Origin: Ideonella aquatica
GTDB lineage: Bacteria > Pseudomonadota > Gammaproteobacteria > Burkholderiales > Burkholderiaceae_C
Direction: 5' to 3'
Assembly (NCBI RefSeq): GCF_018069755.1
Contig: NZ_JAGQDE010000006.1
Location: forward strand, 1 to 64,000
DNA: 64,000 nt
How positions within the stretch are numbered: the stretch's first letter is position 1; every line of letters starts with the position of its first letter. The notes under the pieces are model-generated. The model made no database searches. It saw nothing but the letters and a program-made list of their open reading frames with translations, and was not told the DNA's origin. This document shows, in pieces, positions 10,564 to 31,877 of this stretch. A program made the translations under genes and the position numbers.

Positions 10564-11394
10564 ATGTCTGCTCAAGCCGCCCGCCGCTTCTTTCCGTTCA
10601 ACCTGGTGCTGCCCAACATGCCGGGCGTGGCCGCGCAGCTGGTGAAGAGCTTCAACGACGACCGCGTCGGCCTGGGCGAGCTAGCCGAGCTGATCGGCCA
10701 GGACCCGGCCCTGTCGGCCAAGGTGCTGCGCCTGGCCAACTCGGCCCGCTACAGCCCGCTGCGCAGCGTCAGCAGCCTGCGCGAGGCGGCCGCCTCGCTG
10801 GGCATGACGATGCTGCGCAACCTCTCGCTGGCCACCAGCCTGAGCGGTGCCTTCCCGCGCGCCGCGGGCCTGGACCCCGACCGTTTCTGGCGCCACGCGA
10901 TGACCAGCGCCCAGCACGCGGTGCTGCTCAGCCGCGGCGCGCTGCTGGACGCCGACACCGCCTACCTGGGCGGCCTGATGCTGCGCACCGGCCAGCTGCT
11001 GATGGCGCAGATCGACAAGGCCGGCGTGGCCGAGGTGGAGCAGTCGCTGACCACCGCGGGCGGCCGCTTTGCCGCCGAGCAGGCGCGCTGGCAGTGCAGC
11101 CACGCCGATGTCACCGCCGAGCTGGCCCGCCGCTGGCAGTTCCCCGACACCCTGGTGGCCGCCTTCCAGGCCAGCGCCGCGCCGCTGCAGGCCCAGCCCT
11201 ACACCGGCCTGGGCACGGTGCTGCACCTGGCCGAGGCCTTGGCCGATGCCGCCGAGATGGAGCGCGATCCAGCCGAGGTGGTGCAGGGCCACTGCGCCGA
11301 GCTGCTGGCCCGGCTGCGCATCAAGCCCGAGTGGCTGCTGGCTCAGCTGGCCGAGGCCGCGTCGCCCGACGAGGAACTGGCGCTGATGCGCTGA
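10564..11394 (+). CDS. HDOD domain protein
   Basis: This 276-residue cytoplasmic protein consists almost entirely of an HDOD domain (residues about 14-210), an HD-related fold without the catalytic His-Asp pair. Family features seen are LPNMPGVAAQL, ELIGQDPALSAKVLRLANSA, the SLREAAASLGMTMLRNL helix and GGLMLRTGQLL. HDOD proteins act in signalling, biofilm or motility control, usually through protein contacts; no output domain is attached here. Its last 52 bp overlap the 3' end of the convergent ferredoxin gene. Confidence 0.85.
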   Translation: MSAQAARRFFPFNLVLPNMPGVAAQLVKSFNDDRVGLGELAELIGQDPALSAKVLRLANSARYSPLRSVSSLREAAASLGMTMLRNLSLATSLSGAFPRAAGLDPDRFWRHAMTSAQHAVLLSRGALLDADTAYLGGLMLRTGQLLMAQIDKAGVAEVEQSLTTAGGRFAAEQARWQCSHADVTAELARRWQFPDTLVAAFQASAAPLQAQPYTGLGTVLHLAEALADAAEMERDPAEVVQGHCAELLARLRIKPEWLLAQLAEAASPDEELALMR

Positions 11395-11681
11395 TCCAGC
11401 GCCTTGGGCTGCTCGATGGTCACGTCACCCAGCGGCTCGGCCACGCAGGGCAGTACCCAGCCCTCGGCGCGCTCTTCTGCGCTCAGGCCCGGCCACTCCA
11501 CCCGGTAGCTCACCGCGCCCGCCCGCAGCCGGCACAGGCAGGCGCGGCAGGTGCCATTGCGGCAGGAACGCGGCAGCCACAGGCCCGCGGCCTGGGCGGC
11601 TTCCAGCAGCGACTGCCGCGGCGCCACGGGCAGTTCCCGGCCCAGGGGCTCGATGCGCAGACACGGCAGTGGGGACGTCAT
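11343..11681 (-). CDS. Plant-type [2Fe-2S] ferredoxin
   Basis: This 112-residue protein has the chloroplast-type iron-sulphur motif CRNGTCRAC (spacing C-x4-C-x2-C) plus a distal Cys in WVLPCVAEP, enough for one [2Fe-2S] cluster. It would be a soluble one-electron carrier for an oxygenase or reductase, but no obvious partner is adjacent. The start at 11681 is the first ATG in front of the conserved RIEPLGRELPV strand. The C-terminal tail, about 17 residues rich in Ser and Ala, is encoded opposite the end of the HDOD gene and may be a recent extension past a lost stop codon. Confidence 0.8.
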   Translation of the reverse strand: MTSPLPCLRIEPLGRELPVAPRQSLLEAAQAAGLWLPRSCRNGTCRACLCRLRAGAVSYRVEWPGLSAEERAEGWVLPCVAEPLGDVTIEQPKALDQRISASSSSGDAASAS

Positions 11682-11691
11682 GCCGCAATCG

Positions 11692-11697
11692 TAGACT
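11692..11697 (+). promoter_or_regulatory. -10 box TAGACT before the Nudix/MBL fusion gene
   Basis: TAGACT predicts a start point near 11704. A four-codon reading frame (ATG at 11710, stop TGA) precedes the real ATG at 11734. Confidence 0.4.
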
Positions 11698-11733
11698 GGC
11701 GCCTTCGCCATGAGGCCCTGAGGCCCTGCCGCC

Positions 11734-13392
11734 ATGCCCCCGATCCCGCTGAACCCGAACGACCCCGATCTGGCCGGCGCCCGCCTGGCCGCCAGCGTGG
11801 TGGTGCTGCGCGACGGCGCCACCGGCCCCGAAGTGCTGATGTTGCGCCGTGCCGAGCGCGATGGCGACATCCGCAGCGGCGTCTGGGTCTTCCCCGGCGG
11901 CGTGCTGGACGCCACCGATGGCGAACTGCATGCCCGCTGCGATGGCGAGGACGACGCCGCCCACAGCACCCGCCTGGGCCTGGCCCGCGGCGCGCTGGAC
12001 TACGCAGTGGCCGCCGTGCGCGAGTGCTTCGAGGAGGTGGGCCTGCTCTTCGCCCACGGCCCGCTGCAGGCCGCCGTGGCCGAGCGCCACGCGGTGCAAC
12101 GCGGCGAGGATTTCGTTGCCCTGTGCCAGCGCCACGACCTGCGCCTGGCCACCTCGGCCCTGGTGTACCACAGCCACTGGCTGACGCCGCCGGGCATTGC
12201 CAAGCGCTTTGACACCCGCTTCTACGTGGCCCGCCTGCCCGAGGGCCAGCAGCCGCAGGCCGACGAGGGCGAGGCGCTGGAAATCGCCTGGCTGACCCCG
12301 GCGCAGGCGCTGGACAAGGAGCGCCACCTGAAGCTGCTGCCGGTCACCCGCCGCACGCTGCAGGACCTGGGCCGATTCACCAGCGTGCAGGCCATCCTGG
12401 ACGAGGCCGCCGCGCGGGTGAACCCGCCGCGCCACATGCCGCGCCTGGGCTGCAACGCCCAGGGCGTGCGCCCGGTGCTGCCGGATGAGTGGGCCTACGC
12501 CGAGATCGGCCGGCTAGATCCGCAAGGCCGCGGCGATGTGTGGTTCGAGCTGCCGCCGCTGCGCGCGGTGCCGCTGTCCGAGCGGGTGACGCGCGTGACC
12601 TGCGCCAACGGCTCGGTGATGACCGGCCCGGGCACCAACACTTACCTGATCGGCGCGCCGGGTGGGCCGCTGGCGGTGCTCGACCCCGGTCCCGACGATG
12701 CCGACACCGAGGCCCACCTGGAGGCGGTGCTGCAAGCCGCCGCGGGCCGGCCGATCACCCGCATCGTGGTCACCCACACGCACAAGGACCATTCACCGGC
12801 CGTGCAACGCCTGCGCATGCTGACCGGCGCGACATTGGTGGGCCTGGCTGCGCGGCACCCCGAATGGCAGGACACGCTCTTCGCCCCCGACCTCGCGCCC
12901 GCCGATGGCGAGCGGTTGCTGCTGGGCCCCGGCTGCACGCTGCGCGCGGTGCACACGCCCGGCCATGCGGCCAACCATGTCTGCTGGCTGCTGGAGGAAG
13001 AGCGCCTGCTGTTCACCGGCGACCATGTGATGCAGGGCTCCACCGTGGTGATCAACCCGCCCGACGGTGACATGGCCGCCTACCTGGGCGCGCTAGAGAA
13101 GCTGCTGGCGATCGAGCTGGACTGGTTCGCCCCCGGCCACGGCTTCCTGATGGCGCGCCCGCACGACGAACTGCGCAAGCTCATCGCCCACCGCCTGGCG
13201 CGCGAGGCCAAGGTGCTGGACGCGCTGCGCACGCTGGGCCCCTGCACCGACGAGGCGCTGGTGCCCACGGTGTATGGCGATGTGCCCAGTTCGCGCCACG
13301 CGCTGGCGCTGCGCTCGCTGCGCGCGCATCTGGGCAAGCTGCTGGCCGAGGGGCGGGTGCGGGACGACGCCGGCCAGCTGCGTCTGGGCTGA
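11734..13392 (+). CDS. Nudix hydrolase fused to MBL-fold hydrolase
   Basis: This 552-residue two-domain enzyme begins with a Nudix domain (residues about 15-210), with WVFPGGVLDA and the core RECFEEVG (96-103). The Nudix box is interrupted by an insertion of some 30 residues, as in the acyl-CoA diphosphatase-like subgroup. From about residue 280 a metallo-beta-lactamase domain starts at NGSVMTGPGTNTYLIG, with the metal motif THTHKDH near residue 346, the later ligands HTPGHAANH and FTGDHVM, and a C-terminal winged-helix segment like LACTB2. Family knowledge suggests hydrolysis of a CoA or nucleotide derivative followed by thioester or phosphodiester cleavage. Its stop is 7 bp from the convergent Bug gene. 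Confidence 0.88.
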   Translation: MPPIPLNPNDPDLAGARLAASVVVLRDGATGPEVLMLRRAERDGDIRSGVWVFPGGVLDATDGELHARCDGEDDAAHSTRLGLARGALDYAVAAVRECFEEVGLLFAHGPLQAAVAERHAVQRGEDFVALCQRHDLRLATSALVYHSHWLTPPGIAKRFDTRFYVARLPEGQQPQADEGEALEIAWLTPAQALDKERHLKLLPVTRRTLQDLGRFTSVQAILDEAAARVNPPRHMPRLGCNAQGVRPVLPDEWAYAEIGRLDPQGRGDVWFELPPLRAVPLSERVTRVTCANGSVMTGPGTNTYLIGAPGGPLAVLDPGPDDADTEAHLEAVLQAAAGRPITRIVVTHTHKDHSPAVQRLRMLTGATLVGLAARHPEWQDTLFAPDLAPADGERLLLGPGCTLRAVHTPGHAANHVCWLLEEERLLFTGDHVMQGSTVVINPPDGDMAAYLGALEKLLAIELDWFAPGHGFLMARPHDELRKLIAHRLAREAKVLDALRTLGPCTDEALVPTVYGDVPSSRHALALRSLRAHLGKLLAEGRVRDDAGQLRLG

Positions 13393-13399
13393 AACCTGT

Positions 13400-14377
13400 T
13401 CAGTCCAGCTTCAACCCCAACTTGCGGATCACCGCGCCCCAGCGCGCGCTGTCGGACTCCACCACCTGGCGGAACGCCGCCGCGCTGCCGCCCACCGGCG
13501 TCAGGCCTTGCGCGTCCAGCGCGCTCTTGACCGCCGGATCGGCCAGCGTGGCGTTGACATCGGCGTTGACCTTCGCCACCACCGCCTCAGGCGTGCCGGC
13601 GGCCACGAACAGACCGTTCCAGGCCAGGCTCTCCACATTCTTCAGGCCCACCGAGCCCATGGTCGGCAGGTCTTTCAGGCTGTCGGGCTGCTGGGCGCTG
13701 CTAACGGCCAGCAGGCGGACCTTGTTGTTGCGCACATGGGCCATCAGCGCCGGGGCCACCATGAAGCAGGCGTCGGCCTCGCCCTGCGCCACCGCCAGCG
13801 CGGCCGGCGGCGAGCCGTTGAACGGGATGTGCTGGGCCTGGGCGCCGATCTCGGCCAGGAACAGCGCCATCGTCAGGTGGGCCGAGCTGCCGTTGCCCAG
13901 CGACGAGTAGTTCATCGCGCCGTTCTTGGCTTTGGCCCAGGCGATGAACTCGGCCAGCGTCTTCACCGGCACATGCGCGCCCACCGCCAGCACATTGGGC
14001 TGCGAGGTGGTCATCACCACCGGCACCAGGTCCTTGGCGGCGTCGTAGGGCACCTTGGCGTACAGGTAGGGCGCGAAGGCGATCGGGCCGTTGAAGGACA
14101 GCGCGATCGTGTGGCCGTCGGGCGCCGCCTTGGCCGCCACGTCGGTGCCCAGCATGCCGCCGGCGCCGGGCTTGTTCTCGACCACCACGGCCTGGCCCCA
14201 GCGGTCCTTGAGCTTGTCGCCCAGCAGCCGGGCGATGATGTCCAGCGAGGAGCCGGCCGGCGCCGGCACGACGATGCGCACCGGCTTGGTGGGCCAGGCG
14301 GACTGGGCCTGGGCCAGCGGCGCGCACGCGAAGGTGGCGGCCAGGGCAAGCAGGGAGCGGCGCAGCATCATGGGCAT
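13400..14377 (-). CDS. Bug-family (TctC-like) periplasmic solute-binding protein
   Basis: This 325-residue secreted protein has a signal peptide (MLRRSLLALAATFACAPLAQAQS) and then the Bug signature WPTKPVRIVVPAPAGSSLD, followed by the family motifs VVENKPGAGGMLGTD and YSSLGNGSSAHL. Such proteins bind carboxylates or aromatic acids in the periplasm for tripartite tricarboxylate transporters, but Burkholderiales carry many without a linked transporter, as here. The start is uncertain: 14377, 14371 and 14368 are all possible, and none has a ribosome binding site because the region is taken up by the gdhA terminator hairpin. Confidence 0.88.
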   Translation of the reverse strand: MPMMLRRSLLALAATFACAPLAQAQSAWPTKPVRIVVPAPAGSSLDIIARLLGDKLKDRWGQAVVVENKPGAGGMLGTDVAAKAAPDGHTIALSFNGPIAFAPYLYAKVPYDAAKDLVPVVMTTSQPNVLAVGAHVPVKTLAEFIAWAKAKNGAMNYSSLGNGSSAHLTMALFLAEIGAQAQHIPFNGSPPAALAVAQGEADACFMVAPALMAHVRNNKVRLLAVSSAQQPDSLKDLPTMGSVGLKNVESLAWNGLFVAAGTPEAVVAKVNADVNATLADPAVKSALDAQGLTPVGGSAAAFRQVVESDSARWGAVIRKLGLKLD

Positions 14378-14378
14378 G

Positions 14379-14402
14379 AAAAAGGGGCCTGGAAAGGCCC
14401 CC
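14379..14402 (-). terminator. Intrinsic terminator of gdhA
   Basis: On the minus strand a 7-bp GGGGCCT/AGGCCCC stem (14384-14390 with 14395-14401) with a 4-base loop is followed by five T residues. It stands 26 bp after the gdhA stop and immediately before the Bug gene start. Confidence 0.85.
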
Positions 14403-14427
14403 ATGGTAGCGGTGTGCCGCCTGACGC

Positions 14428-15702
<1,275 letters not shown>

Positions 15703-20429: not shown

Positions 20430-20720
20430 ATGGACCGTCAGGCCTTGATCGACCTGCTGACTGCGCACCGCCCCGTGCTGGCGCAGCGCTCTGGCGTGAC
20501 TCGTCTGGCCTTGTTCCGCAGCGCAGCGCGCGGCACTGCGCGGCCGGACAGCGATGTGGACCTGCCGGTGGCCTTCGACGGCCCGGCCACATCAGTGCGC
20601 TACTTCGGTGTGCAGTTCTACCTGGAAGACCTGCTGCAACGCCCCATCGACCTGGTGACCGAGTCCGCGCTGCGCCCGCAGTTCAGGCCCACTGTCGAAC
20701 GAGACGCCATCGTCGTCTGA
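20430..20720 (+). CDS. MntA-type nucleotidyltransferase antitoxin with altered active site
   Basis: This 96-residue protein is of the minimal nucleotidyltransferase (MNT) family. Active members carry a GSx10DxD motif and neutralise HEPN (HepT) toxins by adding AMP to a Tyr. Here the motif reads LFRSAARG followed by DSDVDLPV: the invariant Gly before Ser is Arg, while both Asp residues remain. The nucleotide-binding loop is therefore probably damaged. The rest (YFGVQFYLEDLLQRPIDLV and the Arg-rich end) is normal. An ATG three codons upstream (20421) is an alternative start. The toxin partner that should follow is a broken gene starting two bases after this stop. Confidence 0.8.
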   Translation: MDRQALIDLLTAHRPVLAQRSGVTRLALFRSAARGTARPDSDVDLPVAFDGPATSVRYFGVQFYLEDLLQRPIDLVTESALRPQFRPTVERDAIVV

Positions 20721-20721
20721 C

Positions 20722-20945
20722 CGGAACCCGCGGCTGTACGTGGCCAACATGCTGGCGTTCACCCAACGGGCGATGGCGCCGGACATCCCGTGGCGGCAGA
20801 TCGTCGCCACCCACAACCGGTTTGCGCATGCGTCCCTGGGCATTGCACCAGAGACGGTGTGGAGCATCCTTGCGATGACCTGCCGCCGATGGTGGCTGCC
20901 CTGCCAGTGTTGATCACGGCGTTGGGACCGGCCGACCCAGTCTGA
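20722..20945 (+). pseudogene. Remnant of a HepT-type HEPN toxin gene (DUF86)
   Basis: The frame beginning RNPRLYVANMLAF matches the start of HepT/DUF86 proteins but has no in-frame start codon before 20740. After about 16 residues it jumps directly to PDIPWRQIVATHNRFAHA, the RNase motif region, so the 50 or so intervening residues are missing. A one-base loss near 20875 then shifts the frame; the expected C-terminus (DDLPPMVAALPVLI) continues in the next frame to the TGA at 20943-20945. In the motif, Arg of RX4H is His, and the Tyr that the antitoxin modifies is Ser. This region fills the only gap over 300 bp in the window. Confidence 0.8.
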
Positions 20946-21044: not shown

Positions 21045-24000
21045 ATGGCGAGCGCATCCCCGTCCAGCAACGCCGCATCGGCGAGCGCAGAGCCCATTGG
21101 TCCCACCGAGGATTGGCTGGGCTACGGCCCATATGCCGACAGCCTGTGGGCGCGCATGCAACTGGCGCTGAGCCAGCCCTGGGCACCAGGGCACACGCCC
21201 ATCACCTCGCGCCCCGGCGCCGACCCCTTGGTGGTGGGCGTCTATGGCGAGTGGGGCGTGGGCAAGAGCAAGCTGCTGGAACTGGTCTACGACCGCGCCG
21301 TGGCCGAGAACGCCCAGCGCCTGCAGCAGCGCAGCCAGGATCCCGAGGCCTGGGCCCGGAGCCCTGCGCTGCATCTGGTGGTGCCGGTGTGGTTTCACCC
21401 CTGGCGCTACGAGAATGAGCCCAGCCTGGCCGTGCCCTTGCTGATGCATGTGACCGAGGCGCTGCACGCCACGCTCAAGCAGGCGGCCAGCACGAGCGAA
21501 TCCATGCGTCGCGACATCGCGGCCTTGGCCAAGGCCGGCAACGAGCAGGCCAAGCTGGCCACCCGACTGTTCACCGGGGCCAAGAAGGTCATGCAGGTCG
21601 CCGGCAAGGTCGCCGGCAACGAAATGGTCAAGGCCACAGCGGGCGCCGCCGCCTCCTTGGTCAATGCCAGGCAACTGGCCGAAGGCGCGCTGGAGTGGGT
21701 GGAGGAGACGGCGGAGCGCTTCGCTGGCGACGATGAGGTCGACGGCCAGCCTGAGAAGAAGGCCCCGGCCGATGGCGCCGACAAGGATGAGGGCATCACG
21801 CCCAGCGCCAGCGCCGACGGCCGCTACCACTACAACGTGCAGAAGTACCTGCGCGAACTGAGCCACGTCACCCCCGCGCTCGCCAAGCGCCATGGGCAGA
21901 CCTTGCGCACCGAGGTGCACCTGCGCTTCGCCGTCTTCATCGACGACCTGGACCGCTGCCTGCCCGAAAACGCCGTGGCGGTGCTGGAACTGATCAAGAC
22001 GCTGCTCAACGTGGAGAGCTTTGCCTTCATGGTGGCGCTGGACGACGAGGTGATCGAGCGTGGCATCTCGCACCGCTACCGCGATTACCGCTTCAAGGGC
22101 GCCAAGCCCGAGATGCCGATCACCGGCTTCGAGTACCTGGAGAAGATCGTCCACCTGCCGTTCAGGCTGCCGGCGCTCACCCGCTCGCAGGCCGAGGACC
22201 TGCTGCGCCACCGCGAAGAGCGGCTGCTGCGGGGCAGCAACCTGCCCAGGCTGTGGTTCCCCGAGCCCTTGGCGCCGTCCGAGCGCGGTCGCTCCAGCGA
22301 AACAAAGGACCTCGAAACCCCCTGGGTGCCCGGGATGCGCATGCCGGGCGCGCCCTCCAAGCTGACCGAGCTGCTGCTCGACAGCTTCGACGCCTACGTA
22401 CCCCGCAAGCTGCTGCGTACCCAGGAGCTGGTGCACCAATGGCAGCGCATCCTGGCCGAACGGGGCTACCCCCTGGGCATCAACACTGACGCCCTGATGT
22501 TGCTGAGCCTGGCCCTGTTGCAGCTCTTTGCGCCTGATGTCTATCGGCTGGTGCGTCGCCGAGAAGGGGTCTGGCAAGAGTGGATGAACGCCTACCGCGT
22601 CATCGCCGACGGACACGCTGCCGTCTTCTCCACCTCGCGCGAAGACGCTGCGCCCCACTATCGCCTGCACGCCTCCAACGCCTTGCTGTACCGCTGGGCA
22701 GCCAAGGGGCCCAAAGCGGGGCTGCCGACGGCGACCTCGACGCGGGTCACGTCCTCAGCGGCGGACGTGCCCGAGTGGGCCGGCGATCTGGCGGCCTGGC
22801 GCGCCGCGCTGGCCACCACCATCGGTGGCGACCCGGTGGCCCTGTATGCGGCTGAAAACCATCGGCTGCCCTTGGTGCTGGCATTGGGCGAATACTTTGA
22901 CGCCCAACGCCATGCTTTCAACCCGCTGCAAATGGGCGCCTCACTGGCCGCCTTGAGAGGTTCAACGGAGGGCGGCCATGACCAAGGGCTGGCCCGCTAT
23001 TGGCAGATGCTGCCCGATGCGGCTGATGCGACCACGGCAACACAACCCTCAAGCAGCGGCGACGCCCAGGCAGGCCGGCGCCGGGATGACCTGGACCTCG
23101 GACGGTTGCTCAGCTTCATCGCCAGCACCGACGCCAGCGCCCGCAGCGGCCTGGTGCGCGAGCTGGGCCTGGCCCCGGGCGACTGGCTGCCTAGCCGGGT
23201 CATGCCCCAAGTCGTGGCCGCAACAGCCTCGCTGCCGCCGTCGGAAGGCCTGGCCCTGTGGGCGCTGCTGGCGCCCCACGTCGTGCCAAGCGACCTGAGC
23301 GGGCAGGACTTCAGCCCGCATTGGGAGCACCTCCTGCTGGATCCCGACGCAGCCACCACCCACGACCAGTTGCTGCCCGCGCTGGACACCCTGCGCCAGT
23401 ACGGTCTGCTGGACGTGCTGAACCTCACCAACCGCACTAGCGACTTCAAGGGTGCCATGGCGACGCAGCGCGATGACGCCCAGCAGCCCGCCCAAGTCCG
23501 CGAACGCGCCGCTGTGGCGGTGGCGCGCCTGGGCGATGACCGGTTCAACTTCGACGGCGCGCGCTGGGGTCTGCCAACGCAGCGTCACGGCTCGCAGGAG
23601 GACGAGCCCATCGTCGGTTTCGTGCGCTGTGCCGGGCTGTCTTTCACCCGCGGTGAGAAGGACGAAGACGACAACCCGCCCGTTGAGGTCAGGCTACCCA
23701 CGTTCTACATGGCCCGCACACTCACCACTGTGGCGCAATGGGCGGCCTTCATGCAGGGCGGCGGCTACGACGACGAGGCTATCTGGCCCGACCCTCAAGG
23801 CTGGGCCTGGCGCCTGGGCCGGTTTGACAACGCGGTGGACAACGAGGATTACAAGCGCTGGCTGGCAGAGCGTCCGGCAGGCGCTGCACGGTCCCAGCCC
23901 CGGGATTGGTATCTGCAACTGGCACATCCCCAGCACCCGGTGTGTGGCATCAACTGGTTCGAGGCCCGAGCCTATGCCTGCTGGCTGCACCGCCAATTGC

Positions 24001-24482
24001 AGGCTGAACTGACGGTAGCGGGCATGGCCCAGTGGCAAGTGCGGCTGCCCACCGAGGACCAGTATGAACGCGCAGCCCGCGCCAGCACCACCACCGCCAC
24101 CCATCGCCACCGCTGGCCCTGGGGCGACGAAGTTGCGACCGCTGCAAACCACGCCAACGTGGAAATCACCGGCCTGCGCCAATCCACCCCGGTAGGCCTG
24201 TTCGCCCCCAACCCGTTGGGGCTTTACGACATCTCGGGGAACCTGTGGGAGTGGCAGGATAACCTGTACAAAGTGCTGCGACCGGATGCTTTGGCGGCGC
24301 GGGTGGCTGCTGGCCAGGCACTAGCGACGCACAGGACACTTGAGCGATGTGACCTCACGGCGCTGCGGGGCGGCTCCTGGGGCGACGTCGTCCACTATGC
24401 GCGGTGTGCCTATAGGATCCGGAACCTGCCCGGCAACAGCGACAGGTATGTGGGTCTGAGGGTTGTCTTGTCCCTCGTTTGA
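21045..24482 (+). CDS. KAP-family P-loop NTPase fused to a FGE-sulfatase/C-type-lectin domain
   Basis: A 1145-residue protein. The N-terminal KAP NTPase has Walker A GEWGVGKS (68-75), the KAP motif WFHPWRYENE (116-125) and Walker B FAVFIDDLDRC (295-305). The two membrane helices often inserted in KAP proteins are absent, and a charged linker stands there instead. A long helical middle follows. Residues about 850-1145 form a formylglycine-generating-enzyme-like domain: RLPTFYMARTLTTVAQW, GINWFEARAYACWL, RLPTEDQYERAAR, WPWGDE, GLYDISGNLWEW and a final LRGGSW segment. The last 40 codons resemble a DGR variable region. A ribosome binding site CAGGAGG precedes the ATG. Such fusions occur in bacterial conflict systems; the function here is inferred. 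Confidence 0.85.
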   Translation: MASASPSSNAASASAEPIGPTEDWLGYGPYADSLWARMQLALSQPWAPGHTPITSRPGADPLVVGVYGEWGVGKSKLLELVYDRAVAENAQRLQQRSQDPEAWARSPALHLVVPVWFHPWRYENEPSLAVPLLMHVTEALHATLKQAASTSESMRRDIAALAKAGNEQAKLATRLFTGAKKVMQVAGKVAGNEMVKATAGAAASLVNARQLAEGALEWVEETAERFAGDDEVDGQPEKKAPADGADKDEGITPSASADGRYHYNVQKYLRELSHVTPALAKRHGQTLRTEVHLRFAVFIDDLDRCLPENAVAVLELIKTLLNVESFAFMVALDDEVIERGISHRYRDYRFKGAKPEMPITGFEYLEKIVHLPFRLPALTRSQAEDLLRHREERLLRGSNLPRLWFPEPLAPSERGRSSETKDLETPWVPGMRMPGAPSKLTELLLDSFDAYVPRKLLRTQELVHQWQRILAERGYPLGINTDALMLLSLALLQLFAPDVYRLVRRREGVWQEWMNAYRVIADGHAAVFSTSREDAAPHYRLHASNALLYRWAAKGPKAGLPTATSTRVTSSAADVPEWAGDLAAWRAALATTIGGDPVALYAAENHRLPLVLALGEYFDAQRHAFNPLQMGASLAALRGSTEGGHDQGLARYWQMLPDAADATTATQPSSSGDAQAGRRRDDLDLGRLLSFIASTDASARSGLVRELGLAPGDWLPSRVMPQVVAATASLPPSEGLALWALLAPHVVPSDLSGQDFSPHWEHLLLDPDAATTHDQLLPALDTLRQYGLLDVLNLTNRTSDFKGAMATQRDDAQQPAQVRERAAVAVARLGDDRFNFDGARWGLPTQRHGSQEDEPIVGFVRCAGLSFTRGEKDEDDNPPVEVRLPTFYMARTLTTVAQWAAFMQGGGYDDEAIWPDPQGWAWRLGRFDNAVDNEDYKRWLAERPAGAARSQPRDWYLQLAHPQHPVCGINWFEARAYACWLHRQLQAELTVAGMAQWQVRLPTEDQYERAARASTTTATHRHRWPWGDEVATAANHANVEITGLRQSTPVGLFAPNPLGLYDISGNLWEWQDNLYKVLRPDALAARVAAGQALATHRTLERCDLTALRGGSWGDVVHYARCAYRIRNLPGNSDRYVGLRVVLSLV
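24366..24461 (+). other. Candidate DGR variable region at the 3' end of the KAP-FGE gene
   Basis: After the invariant LRGGSW, the non-conserved codons are GGC GAC GTC GTC CAC TAT (24381-24398), TAT (24411), ATC (24417), AAC (24423), AAC AGC GAC (24435-24443) and TAT (24447). All end in C or T, as expected if a template of AAC/AAT codons was mutated at adenines. The intervening codons (Arg-Cys-Ala, Arg, Pro-Gly, Val-Gly-Leu-Arg) keep the fixed pattern of C-type-lectin variable proteins. CTG at 24426 and AGG at 24444 are the exceptions. No template repeat or reverse transcriptase is in the window. Confidence 0.6.
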
Positions 24483-24524
24483 AAAGAGCCTCTGACTTCT
24501 TCCGTTCTTATAACGCAGCCTTCT

Positions 24525-26153
<1,629 letters not shown>

Positions 26154-26186
26154 GGCGGTGGTGGGAACGGAGCGCGAAACCCGCAA

Positions 26187-29739: not shown

Positions 29740-29903
29740 CTTGGGGATTCTCGCAGGCCCCTCAGCCCACCGCGGCTCCCCCTCTTGGGGTATCGTCGGC
29801 TGGCCCGGTCATGCTGCGAACCAGCCGGGCACAGCTGCGCGGACGGTTCATCGGCATCCAGAACCGTCGTCCGCGCCCGCTGTCGATCAGGAGGAGGCTG
29901 CCC

Positions 29904-31877
29904 ATGTCTGAACAGGCCGTGCCCGAGTGGACGCTCGACGGCACGCTGGATGAGTTGGCGAGGATCGACCGGTGCATGAAGGACCGGCAGTTCGCGTTCA
30001 TCCTGGGCGCGGGGGCGTCGTTCACCTCAGGCATTCCCACCGGCCATCATTTGGCCCAGCAGTGGCTGAAGGACCTGCACCTGCGCGAGTGCGGTGAAGC
30101 CCTGCCGTTGGAAGACTGGCTGCCGACCTGCGGCATCGGAGGCGGCCAGCTCACCCTGGACAACGCCGCCCAGCACTACCCGCACATCTTCGAGCGCCGC
30201 TTCGAGGGCGACCGCGAAGGCGGCTATGCCGAACTGGAAACCCAGATGGAAGGCAAGGCGCCCAGCCTGGGCTACTCGCTGCTGGCCGAGATCATTCAGA
30301 ACACACGGCACAAGGTGGTGGTGACCACCAACTTCGACAACCTGGTGGCGGATGCGCTGGCCATGCACGCCCACCAGTCGCCGCTGGTCGTGGCCCATGA
30401 GTCACTGGCCGGCTTCGTGCGCCCGCAACTGCGCCGGCCGCTGGTGGCCAAGATCCACCGCGACCTGTTTCTGAACCCGCTGAACGACGCGAACGGGGTG
30501 TCCACCTTGGAGGAAGGCTGGAAGCTGGCACTGAAGAAGCTGTTCCAGTACTTCACGCCGGTGGTGGTGGGCTACGGCGGCAACGACGGCAGCCTGATGA
30601 ACATGCTGCGGGACCTGAACACGGGCGAGATCGCCGGCCGCATGGTCTGGTGCTACCGCGATGGCGCGCCGCCCAACGCCATCGCCCTGGAGGTGCTGCG
30701 CAAGCACAAAGGCCTGCAAGTCAAGATCCCGGGATTCGACGAGTTCATGCTGTTGCTCGCTGCCAAGCTACTGAAAGGCTTCGACGTGGCCGAGATTGCC
30801 GAGCGGACGGCCAAGCTGGGGCAGGAGCGCGCTGAGCGCTACCGCGGCCAGGCCAAGCAGTTGGTGGAAGCTTCCGCGCGCGGTACGCCGGACGAGCGCA
30901 AGGCCGGCAACGTGTTGACGCTTTCGGCCAGTGCAGGCAACAGCTGGTGGGCGTGGGAGCTGAAGGCGAAGGCCGAACCCGACCTGGTTAAGCGCGACAG
31001 TCTTTACCGCGAGGGAATTCGGCTGTTTCCGAACAGCGCTGAGCTGGCGGGCAACTACGCCCTCTTTCTTGAGAACCAGCGCAAGGACTACGACGCGGCC
31101 GAGGCGCTCTACAAGAGGGCCCTGGAACTCGATCCCAGCAACGCCAACAACACCGGCAACTACGCCATCTTTCTCAAGGATCAGCGCAAGGACTACGATG
31201 CGGCGGAGGCGCTCTTCAAGAAGGCCCTCGAACTCGATCCCAACCACGCCAACAACACCGTCAACTACGCCATCTTTCTCGCGAATCAGCGCAAGGACGA
31301 CAACGCGGCCGAGGTGCTCTACAAGAAGGCTCTGGAACTCGATCCGAACCACGCCAACAACGCGGCCAGCTACGCCATCCTTCTCGCGAATCAGCGCAAG
31401 GACCACGACGCGGCCGAGGCGCTCTACAACAAGGCATTGGAGCTTCGCCCTGATGACGCGAACACCCATGCCAACCTGGCGTCGCTGCTTCTCAGCAGGT
31501 TCGAGTCTGAGGACGTCGCTACTGCCTCACAGCATGTTCGACACTGCCTGGAATTGGCGCGACCTCAGGTCTCACAGGCGTCGGCCGAGGCACTCATGTA
31601 TGGCGCACTGATCGCAGAGCTGCAGCCCGGTGCTGACAGTGCCGACATGCTCAGGCGCCTCAAAGGTGCCCTGTTTGACGGCTTTGAGCGAGGATCGTGG
31701 GACTTCACGCTGGTGTTTGACGCTGTCCTCCCCCACCTGCCCGAGCCACGCCGCGCGTTCTACCTAGCCCTGGGCCGCGCCATCCTGGACGCCGACCAGG
31801 TGGCCGCATTGGACGCCTTCGAGCCGTGGCGGTCCTTGCAACCCCTCGATCCATTCGCCGACCTGCCGTCACCTTGA
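29904..31877 (+). CDS. SIR2-like NADase/deacetylase domain protein with TPR repeats
   Basis: A 657-residue protein. The N-terminal SIR2-like domain (about 20-290) has the NAD-binding GAGASFTSGIP (35-45), VVTTNFDNLV (139-148), the catalytic-position His185 in AKIHRDLFLNPLND, and VGYGGNDGSLMNML. The residue after His, usually Gly, is Arg. The C-terminal half holds at least four 35-residue TPR units (about 376-515) that are nearly identical to each other, then a helical tail. SIR2 domains joined to repeat domains are known from anti-phage abortive systems that deplete NAD. GGAGGAGG six bases before the ATG at 29904 decides the start over an upstream ATG. A membrane protein gene follows after 29 bp. 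Confidence 0.88.
   Translation: MSEQAVPEWTLDGTLDELARIDRCMKDRQFAFILGAGASFTSGIPTGHHLAQQWLKDLHLRECGEALPLEDWLPTCGIGGGQLTLDNAAQHYPHIFERRFEGDREGGYAELETQMEGKAPSLGYSLLAEIIQNTRHKVVVTTNFDNLVADALAMHAHQSPLVVAHESLAGFVRPQLRRPLVAKIHRDLFLNPLNDANGVSTLEEGWKLALKKLFQYFTPVVVGYGGNDGSLMNMLRDLNTGEIAGRMVWCYRDGAPPNAIALEVLRKHKGLQVKIPGFDEFMLLLAAKLLKGFDVAEIAERTAKLGQERAERYRGQAKQLVEASARGTPDERKAGNVLTLSASAGNSWWAWELKAKAEPDLVKRDSLYREGIRLFPNSAELAGNYALFLENQRKDYDAAEALYKRALELDPSNANNTGNYAIFLKDQRKDYDAAEALFKKALELDPNHANNTVNYAIFLANQRKDDNAAEVLYKKALELDPNHANNAASYAILLANQRKDHDAAEALYNKALELRPDDANTHANLASLLLSRFESEDVATASQHVRHCLELARPQVSQASAEALMYGALIAELQPGADSADMLRRLKGALFDGFERGSWDFTLVFDAVLPHLPEPRRAFYLALGRAILDADQVAALDAFEPWRSLQPLDPFADLPSP
31029..31463 (+). 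repeat. Tandem 105-bp repeats inside the SIR2-TPR gene
   Basis: Four in-frame copies of a 105-bp unit encode 35-residue TPRs, with NYA-type starts at codons 31053, 31158 and 31263 and a SYA variant at 31368. Long blocks such as AATCAGCGCAAGGAC and GGCCCTCGAACTCGATCC recur nearly unchanged. The DNA similarity exceeds what TPR function requires, which suggests recent duplication. Confidence 0.8.

Follow-up and report, generated by a model that had tools for sequence, protein, structure and literature searches.

Published work describes several systems close to the locus reported below. In the DGR of BPP-1, a hairpin downstream of the variable repeat (VR) is required for efficient homing (PMC3240598). 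KAP NTPases are named among the targets of clade 5D DGRs of multicellular bacteria, and incomplete loci as well as loci with a disrupted reverse transcriptase (RT) or template repeat (TR) have been described (PNAS 2024, PMC10907252). FGE-type domains and DGRs have also been linked to conflict systems (eLife 2020, PMC7159879), where the FGE-type lectin domain is proposed to be diversified and to bind directly to molecules of the invader.

The window analyzed here, a stretch of 64,000 nucleotides from Ideonella aquatica, carries a gene that fuses a KAP NTPase to an FGE domain of the C-type-lectin fold. It resembles the targets of PMC10907252 in that an NTPase carries a variable CLec/FGE domain at its C-terminus, and differs from them in that neither an RT nor a TR of its own was found anywhere in the assembly. 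The ternary conflict systems linked to FGS and DGRs (PMC7159879) are vWA-MoxR systems, and their likeness to the window rests on the FGE-type lectin domain. The related element of Ideonella sp. MAG2 has the VR, hairpin, RT, Avd and TR that are familiar from BPP-1 (PMC3240598); in contrast, the window keeps an equivalent of the VR only, and its target is a cellular NTPase rather than a phage tail protein. KAP-NTPase targets of DGRs are already known in print, and the window gene looks like an orphaned member of that group; among the matches listed from the open-licence literature, none describes the window locus itself. We lean toward reading the gene as a formerly diversified DGR target whose DGR has since been lost and which is now frozen.

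Results

Domain make-up of the window gene

Pfam placed KAP_NTPase at residues 59-395 (E 1.2e-30) and FGE-sulfatase at residues 863-1141 (E 4.7e-41) of the product; the latter is the C-type-lectin/FGE domain expected of a DGR target. PADLOC matched the gene partially to QatA (E 1.4e-22) and likewise partially to PifA, and with 103.7 bits the NCBIfam QatA model stayed below its cut-off of 600.

An earlier note, made from the letters of this DNA alone, had placed a probable VR at 24366-24461, and it was correct in both coordinates and codons: position 24366 begins the first Arg of RGGSW, and VGLR is encoded by 24450-24461. It had also argued from the C-type-lectin form of this end of the protein. 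The FGE and KAP domain calls hold, but the form itself (RGGSW...R.A.R...P...VGLR) proved to be ordinary across the FGE family. Five other FGE matches were found in the window genome, four of which have RGG[SA][WF] at the same place while the fifth (on contig C2) has no match to the pattern, and PDB relatives cover the motif region too, PorK-type proteins in the alignments and EgtB and SUMF1 in the matched range only. AlphaFold predictions for the FGE domains of the window and MAG2 proteins had a mean pLDDT of 34. The features of the locus and of its relatives are collected in Table 1.

Table 1. Positions of the window gene, its neighbors and the related loci. L017 is the MAG2 locus, L024 the G035 locus and L029 the locus on contig C11 of the window genome.
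Feature	Sequence	Positions	Strand	Basis or remarks
MntA-like nucleotidyltransferase (NTP_transf_2)	window	20430..20720	+	77% to the L017 copy after the DGR, 73% to the copy before KAP-FGE
HepT-like gene remnant	window	20717..20943	+	gaps and frame break relative to the L017 copy
Fusion protein of 1145 aa, KAP NTPase with FGE domain (C-type-lectin fold); DGR-type target, orphan	window	21045..24482	+	Pfam, PADLOC
FGE-sulfatase/C-type-lectin domain stretch	window	23553..24479	+	query for searches
38 codons homologous to the MAG2 VR	window	24360..24473	+	codon-by-codon comparison, blastn; contains 24366-24461
Gap between KAP-FGE gene and prfC frame	window	24483..24524	.	42 bases
prfC (presumed), flank common to window and L017	window	24525..26186	-	90.6% identity
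MAG2 VR	L017	from 9316
MAG2 hairpin	L017	9464-9480		7+7 bases, 3-base loop, starts 22 bases past the stop codon
MAG2 DGR RT	L017	9500-10567		best PDB match 8ub7_A 'Reverse transcriptase', E 2.2e-46
MAG2 Avd	L017	10564-10893		NF033474 (DivGenRetAVD), 80.6 bits, barely above the cut-off of 80
MAG2 TR	L017	from 10937
C-terminal half of DGR Avd gene, right after KAP-FGE gene	L024	8492-8692	-	antisense; NF033474
TIR-NACHT-FGE gene	L029	3717-6749		Pfam TIR_2 E 8.9e-9, FGE E 1.6e-43

A complete DGR beside the nearest homologue

The nearest homologue found was the KAP-FGE gene of Ideonella sp. MAG2, which belongs to the window's genus and also adjoins prfC; it was the sole relative returned by a pattern-based scan of genome contigs that reaches close relatives only. 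In MAG2 the gene is followed, in one locus, by a complete DGR with hairpin, DGR-type RT, Avd and TR. The best PDB match of the RT is presumably the BPP-1 DGR enzyme. Over 114 bases of the MAG2 VR/TR alignment, 10 of the 26 TR adenines but none of the 88 other bases are changed (p 8e-8); evidently, this DGR copies, or recently copied, an adenine-mutated template into the VR.

The flank shared with MAG2

The gene that adjoins KAP-FGE in both genomes is prfC, which we take to encode peptide chain release factor 3. The counterpart in MAG2 of the short gap between the window gene and prfC is a stretch of 2,581 bases that holds the hairpin, RT, Avd, TR and the mntA-like and hepT-like genes. In MAG2 the KAP-FGE/DGR unit is flanked on either side by an MntA-like gene, and the HepT-like gene there (E 1.2e-23) is a full-length frame after the second of these. 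The HepT-like remnant of the window was recognized by DNA alignment, with a score of 153 where 200 letter shuffles reached 77 at most. Among 16 genomes of the genus, KAP-FGE is found on the 3' side of prfC in only two, the window's and MAG2; that side was read over 5.6 to 7.9 kb in the other 14 (L108-L121), and its gene content differs among many of the genus genomes; it is a possible hot spot of accessory genes. Because the two KAP-FGE genes are 51% identical as against 91% for prfC, and because the spot beside prfC is variable, the window and MAG2 copies may be separate arrivals there. On the other side of prfC, 3.6 kb beyond it, lies a candidate defense gene (29811-31877) with a SIR2-like domain followed by TPR repeats and with PADLOC matches to the SIR2 parts of Argonaute-associated systems.

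Base composition and codons of the VR-equivalent segment

Positions 24360-24473 of the window are homologous codon for codon to the MAG2 VR, and a blastn search with the MAG2 TR finds this segment (E 8.8e-5, 72% over 78 bases). Compared with the MAG2 TR, the segment differs at 14 of 26 adenines and at 24 of 88 other bases (p 0.012). The third base is identical in 9/16 changed codons versus 192/508 (p 0.11), a C or T is kept in 9/11 versus 149/252 (p 0.11), and a score of conservation at position 3 minus that at position 1 ranks the segment 81st of 1089 scored windows. At the base level, the signs that the segment was once mutagenized are weak.

The claim that 13 non-conserved codons of this region all end in C or T, as adenine mutagenesis would leave them, was true of the codons that were named, but these were a selection from which the CGG, AGG and GTG codons among them had been omitted. 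In 9 of the 13 the C or T ending is fixed or nearly so by the residue (D, H, Y, N, I), and with the residues taken as given and codon usage estimated from seven window genes (3866 codons), the probability that all 13 would end this way is 0.063; as an argument for adenine mutagenesis, this is weak. The claim that the codons here are unusual stood up better: when the seven genes were cut into 3586 overlapping stretches of 40 codons, 24360-24479 scored with the lowest 115, with equally low stretches at 28/1065 in its own gene, 72/649 in the SIR2-TPR gene and none in four of the genes. The frames of these reference genes were chosen by us, and their labels are our assumption. Unusual codons are expected of a sequence formerly copied from a non-coding template.

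At the residue level, window and MAG2 are identical at 4 of 17 adenine codons and 18 of 21 other codons; the homologues L024 and L026, which lack a full DGR, are identical at 4 of 17 and 13 of 21, respectively. We therefore rejected residue variability at adenine codons as proof of DGR action, since it is seen also among homologues without one. The earlier note had expected close homologues to vary at these codons rather than at random positions, and they do, but the pattern is unspecific for the same reason.

KAP-FGE homologues and an Avd fragment

Five full-length KAP-FGE genes were available (window, MAG2, G035, G208 and G029), of which one is accompanied by a full DGR, one by a DGR fragment and three by nothing that we could find. 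The fragment, in G035, matches NF033474 at positions 56-104 (E 1.9e-10), bAvd (E 3.1e-8) and phrog_3206 (E 2.5e-9), the NF033474 and bAvd scores lying under the full-length cut-offs; as the contig ends 1.2 kb after the KAP-FGE gene, more DGR sequence may lie beyond. It is 53% identical to the MAG2 Avd over 55 residues. Over the same 55-residue part, two of five other DGR loci of the family (five matches in 399 family genomes) show 45% and 43% and the remaining three no match, and two Avds from an Ideonella dechloratans plasmid show 41-42%. A contrast of 53% (55 residues) with 26-34% (87-110 residues) was weakened accordingly, as the same 55 residues give the others 41-45%, and the margin of 53% over 45% amounts to about four residues. 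The I. dechloratans plasmid (NZ_CP088082.1, 709 kb) has at 11388-14787 (L122) a phage-like region that contains a DGR-type RT, two genes annotated as avd and one further gene with a reverse-transcriptase domain; its DGR-type RT is only 41% identical to that of MAG2.

A sixth KAP-FGE gene (G261) is interrupted by its contig end, and for a seventh, more distant one (G181) neither RT nor Avd nor TR was found within 12 kb. In a six-protein tree with midpoint rooting, in which the placement of G181, the longest row, is unsure, the window protein grouped with MAG2 (98/100), with G035 together with G208 and G029 outside (97/96). Since G035 with its Avd fragment falls outside the window/MAG2 pair, parsimony suggests that the DGR may predate their split; since G208 and G029 gave no RT, Avd or repeat in the loci searched, separate gains in MAG2 and G035 are also possible. 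The fragment mildly favors an old KAP-FGE/DGR partnership that was lost in the window lineage. Beyond these genomes, an order-level search for KAP-FGE at E 1e-60 returned one of 399, the window itself, and viral contigs returned no relatives; the FGE domain was found in 131 phage and 11 plasmid records, for which the 20 and 5 matches listed were all below 30% identity.

The segment could instead be an ordinary C-terminal FGE loop that was never a DGR target in the window lineage, with MAG2 and, separately, G035 having acquired DGRs. That the motif is general among FGE domains, occurring in four of the five further matches in the genome and in PorK-type PDB relatives, agrees with this, as do the variation of DGR-free homologues at the same columns, the weakness of the C/T-ending evidence and the lack of any trace of a DGR in G208 and G029; against it stand the unusual codons of the VR stretch, the prfC flank with its MntA-like neighbor as in MAG2, and the Avd fragment at the G035 gene, which lies outside the window/MAG2 pair, the fragment being the best match to the MAG2 Avd. 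Taking these together, we judge that history somewhat unlikely.

DGR components in the window genome

The window assembly comprises 58 contigs and 5.17 Mb, with an estimated completeness of 99.99%. An RVT_1 search of the whole assembly found no DGR RT, its one match being a group II-type fragment on contig C5; as a positive control, this search was also run on 16 genus genomes and picked up the DGR RT of MAG2 (G405:C2:40710, G405 being the MAG2 genome). The C5 fragment was rejected as a DGR RT, being truncated at 173 aa and having group II intron RT as its best family (E 1.1e-55), and apart from this fragment (E 1.4e-7), the MAG2 RT protein had a single match in the window genome, which was insignificant. 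No near-copy of the VR-equivalent segment was found in its own genome, where the best other match was 29 bases long (E 0.008), or within the window at 60% over 60 bases, and below E 0.5 the MAG2 TR matched nothing in the genome except this segment. The MAG2 Avd had no tblastn match in the window, and no inverted repeat was found in 24440-24640, after the segment, at a setting that detects the MAG2 hairpin. The earlier note had envisaged a face that is programmably diversified at present and had proposed looking for an A-biased near-copy and an RT with a YxDD motif; neither was found in this assembly, which was the first of two outcomes that it had named as counting against it, and with no DGR RT and no TR in the assembly the claim of present diversification is not supported. 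The VR-equivalent segment now appears to be frozen. Diversification still active in trans, from a DGR RT and matching TR in an assembly gap or on a plasmid, is improbable: the assembly is in 58 contigs, trans diversification of targets has been proposed for some loci in PMC10907252, and genes for a DGR-type RT and Avd occur on the I. dechloratans plasmid, albeit in phage-like surroundings, but the estimated completeness, the lack of a TR for the segment in the 5.17 Mb and of an inverted repeat after it, and the low identity of the plasmid RT to that of MAG2 all argue against it.

A TIR-NACHT-FGE gene with its own template

Contig C11 of the window genome holds a TR/VR pair that is genuine, a relic without an adjacent RT. 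The gene there has, besides its TIR and FGE parts, a NACHT match just under the cut-off (E 8.9e-6, 26.1 bits against 26.7) and is followed by an adenine-rich TR, the starts of the two repeats lying 255 bases apart (region L029:3717-7001). After exclusion of 12 gap bases, the full-length alignment of VR and TR shows differences at 18 of 30 TR adenines and 14 of 101 other bases (p 1.4e-6); counted from the Trp codon on, the figures are 17 of 28 and 6 of 77 (p 6e-8). Neither an RT nor an Avd was found within 12 kb, and the differences at non-adenine bases suggest that the pair has been idle for some time. This template was rejected as a source for the window segment, to which it aligns with a score of 18 as against 39 for the MAG2 TR. 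Searched against the genus, it gave six weak matches in other genomes, the best of which (L086, in G181) is a gene whose end is of the FGE type and for which no repeat was found. On contig C34, two tandem FGE-domain genes with the end motifs RGGSW and RGGAF lie on the minus strand near the contig end (L028:2431-6420); the direct repeats within 12 kb there fit the paralogy of the two genes and not a TR.

Discussion

In the history that we favor, loss of a DGR from a formerly diversified target, the window gene would encode a predicted conflict sensor, in which a KAP P-loop NTPase is joined to a C-terminal FGE/C-type-lectin domain that would bind an outside ligand, and the 38 codons near the gene end would correspond to a DGR variable repeat. 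A downstream DGR made up of RT, Avd, TR and target hairpin would, in an ancestor, have copied an adenine-mutated template into this segment, and we put the chances of such past diversification at somewhat better than even. The DGR between the KAP-FGE gene and prfC would then have been lost in the window lineage, and as a consequence the receptor, with its putative role in defense, would have become fixed at one sequence and would now evolve by ordinary mutation. This account draws on the domain make-up, the common prfC flank, the MAG2 DGR and the G035 Avd fragment, together with searches of the window genome in which no RT, TR or hairpin was found. The HepT-like remnant next to the gene, the unusual codons of the segment and the TR/VR pair on C11 also speak for it.

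Since KAP-NTPase targets have been reported before, the orphaned state is the interesting part of this locus. Beside the same neighbor, homologous genes occur with a complete DGR in MAG2 and as an orphan in the window, with the G035 Avd fragment as a possible intermediate, so that the window/MAG2 pair addresses a question that is otherwise hard to test, namely the fate of a hypermutable receptor after loss of its mutator. Should the frozen receptor still be functional, the one sequence at which it is fixed may hint at a common ligand that was retained by selection. More tentatively, and with rather more doubt than confidence, we suggest that the family may shed the DGRs of its NTPase-lectin sensors repeatedly while the receptors stay, leaving KAP-FGE and TIR-NACHT-FGE in the window genome as fixed, germline-like receptors. 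If this is true, repeated DGR shedding would be a means by which a diversifying immune repertoire is turned into fixed receptors of a germline-like kind.
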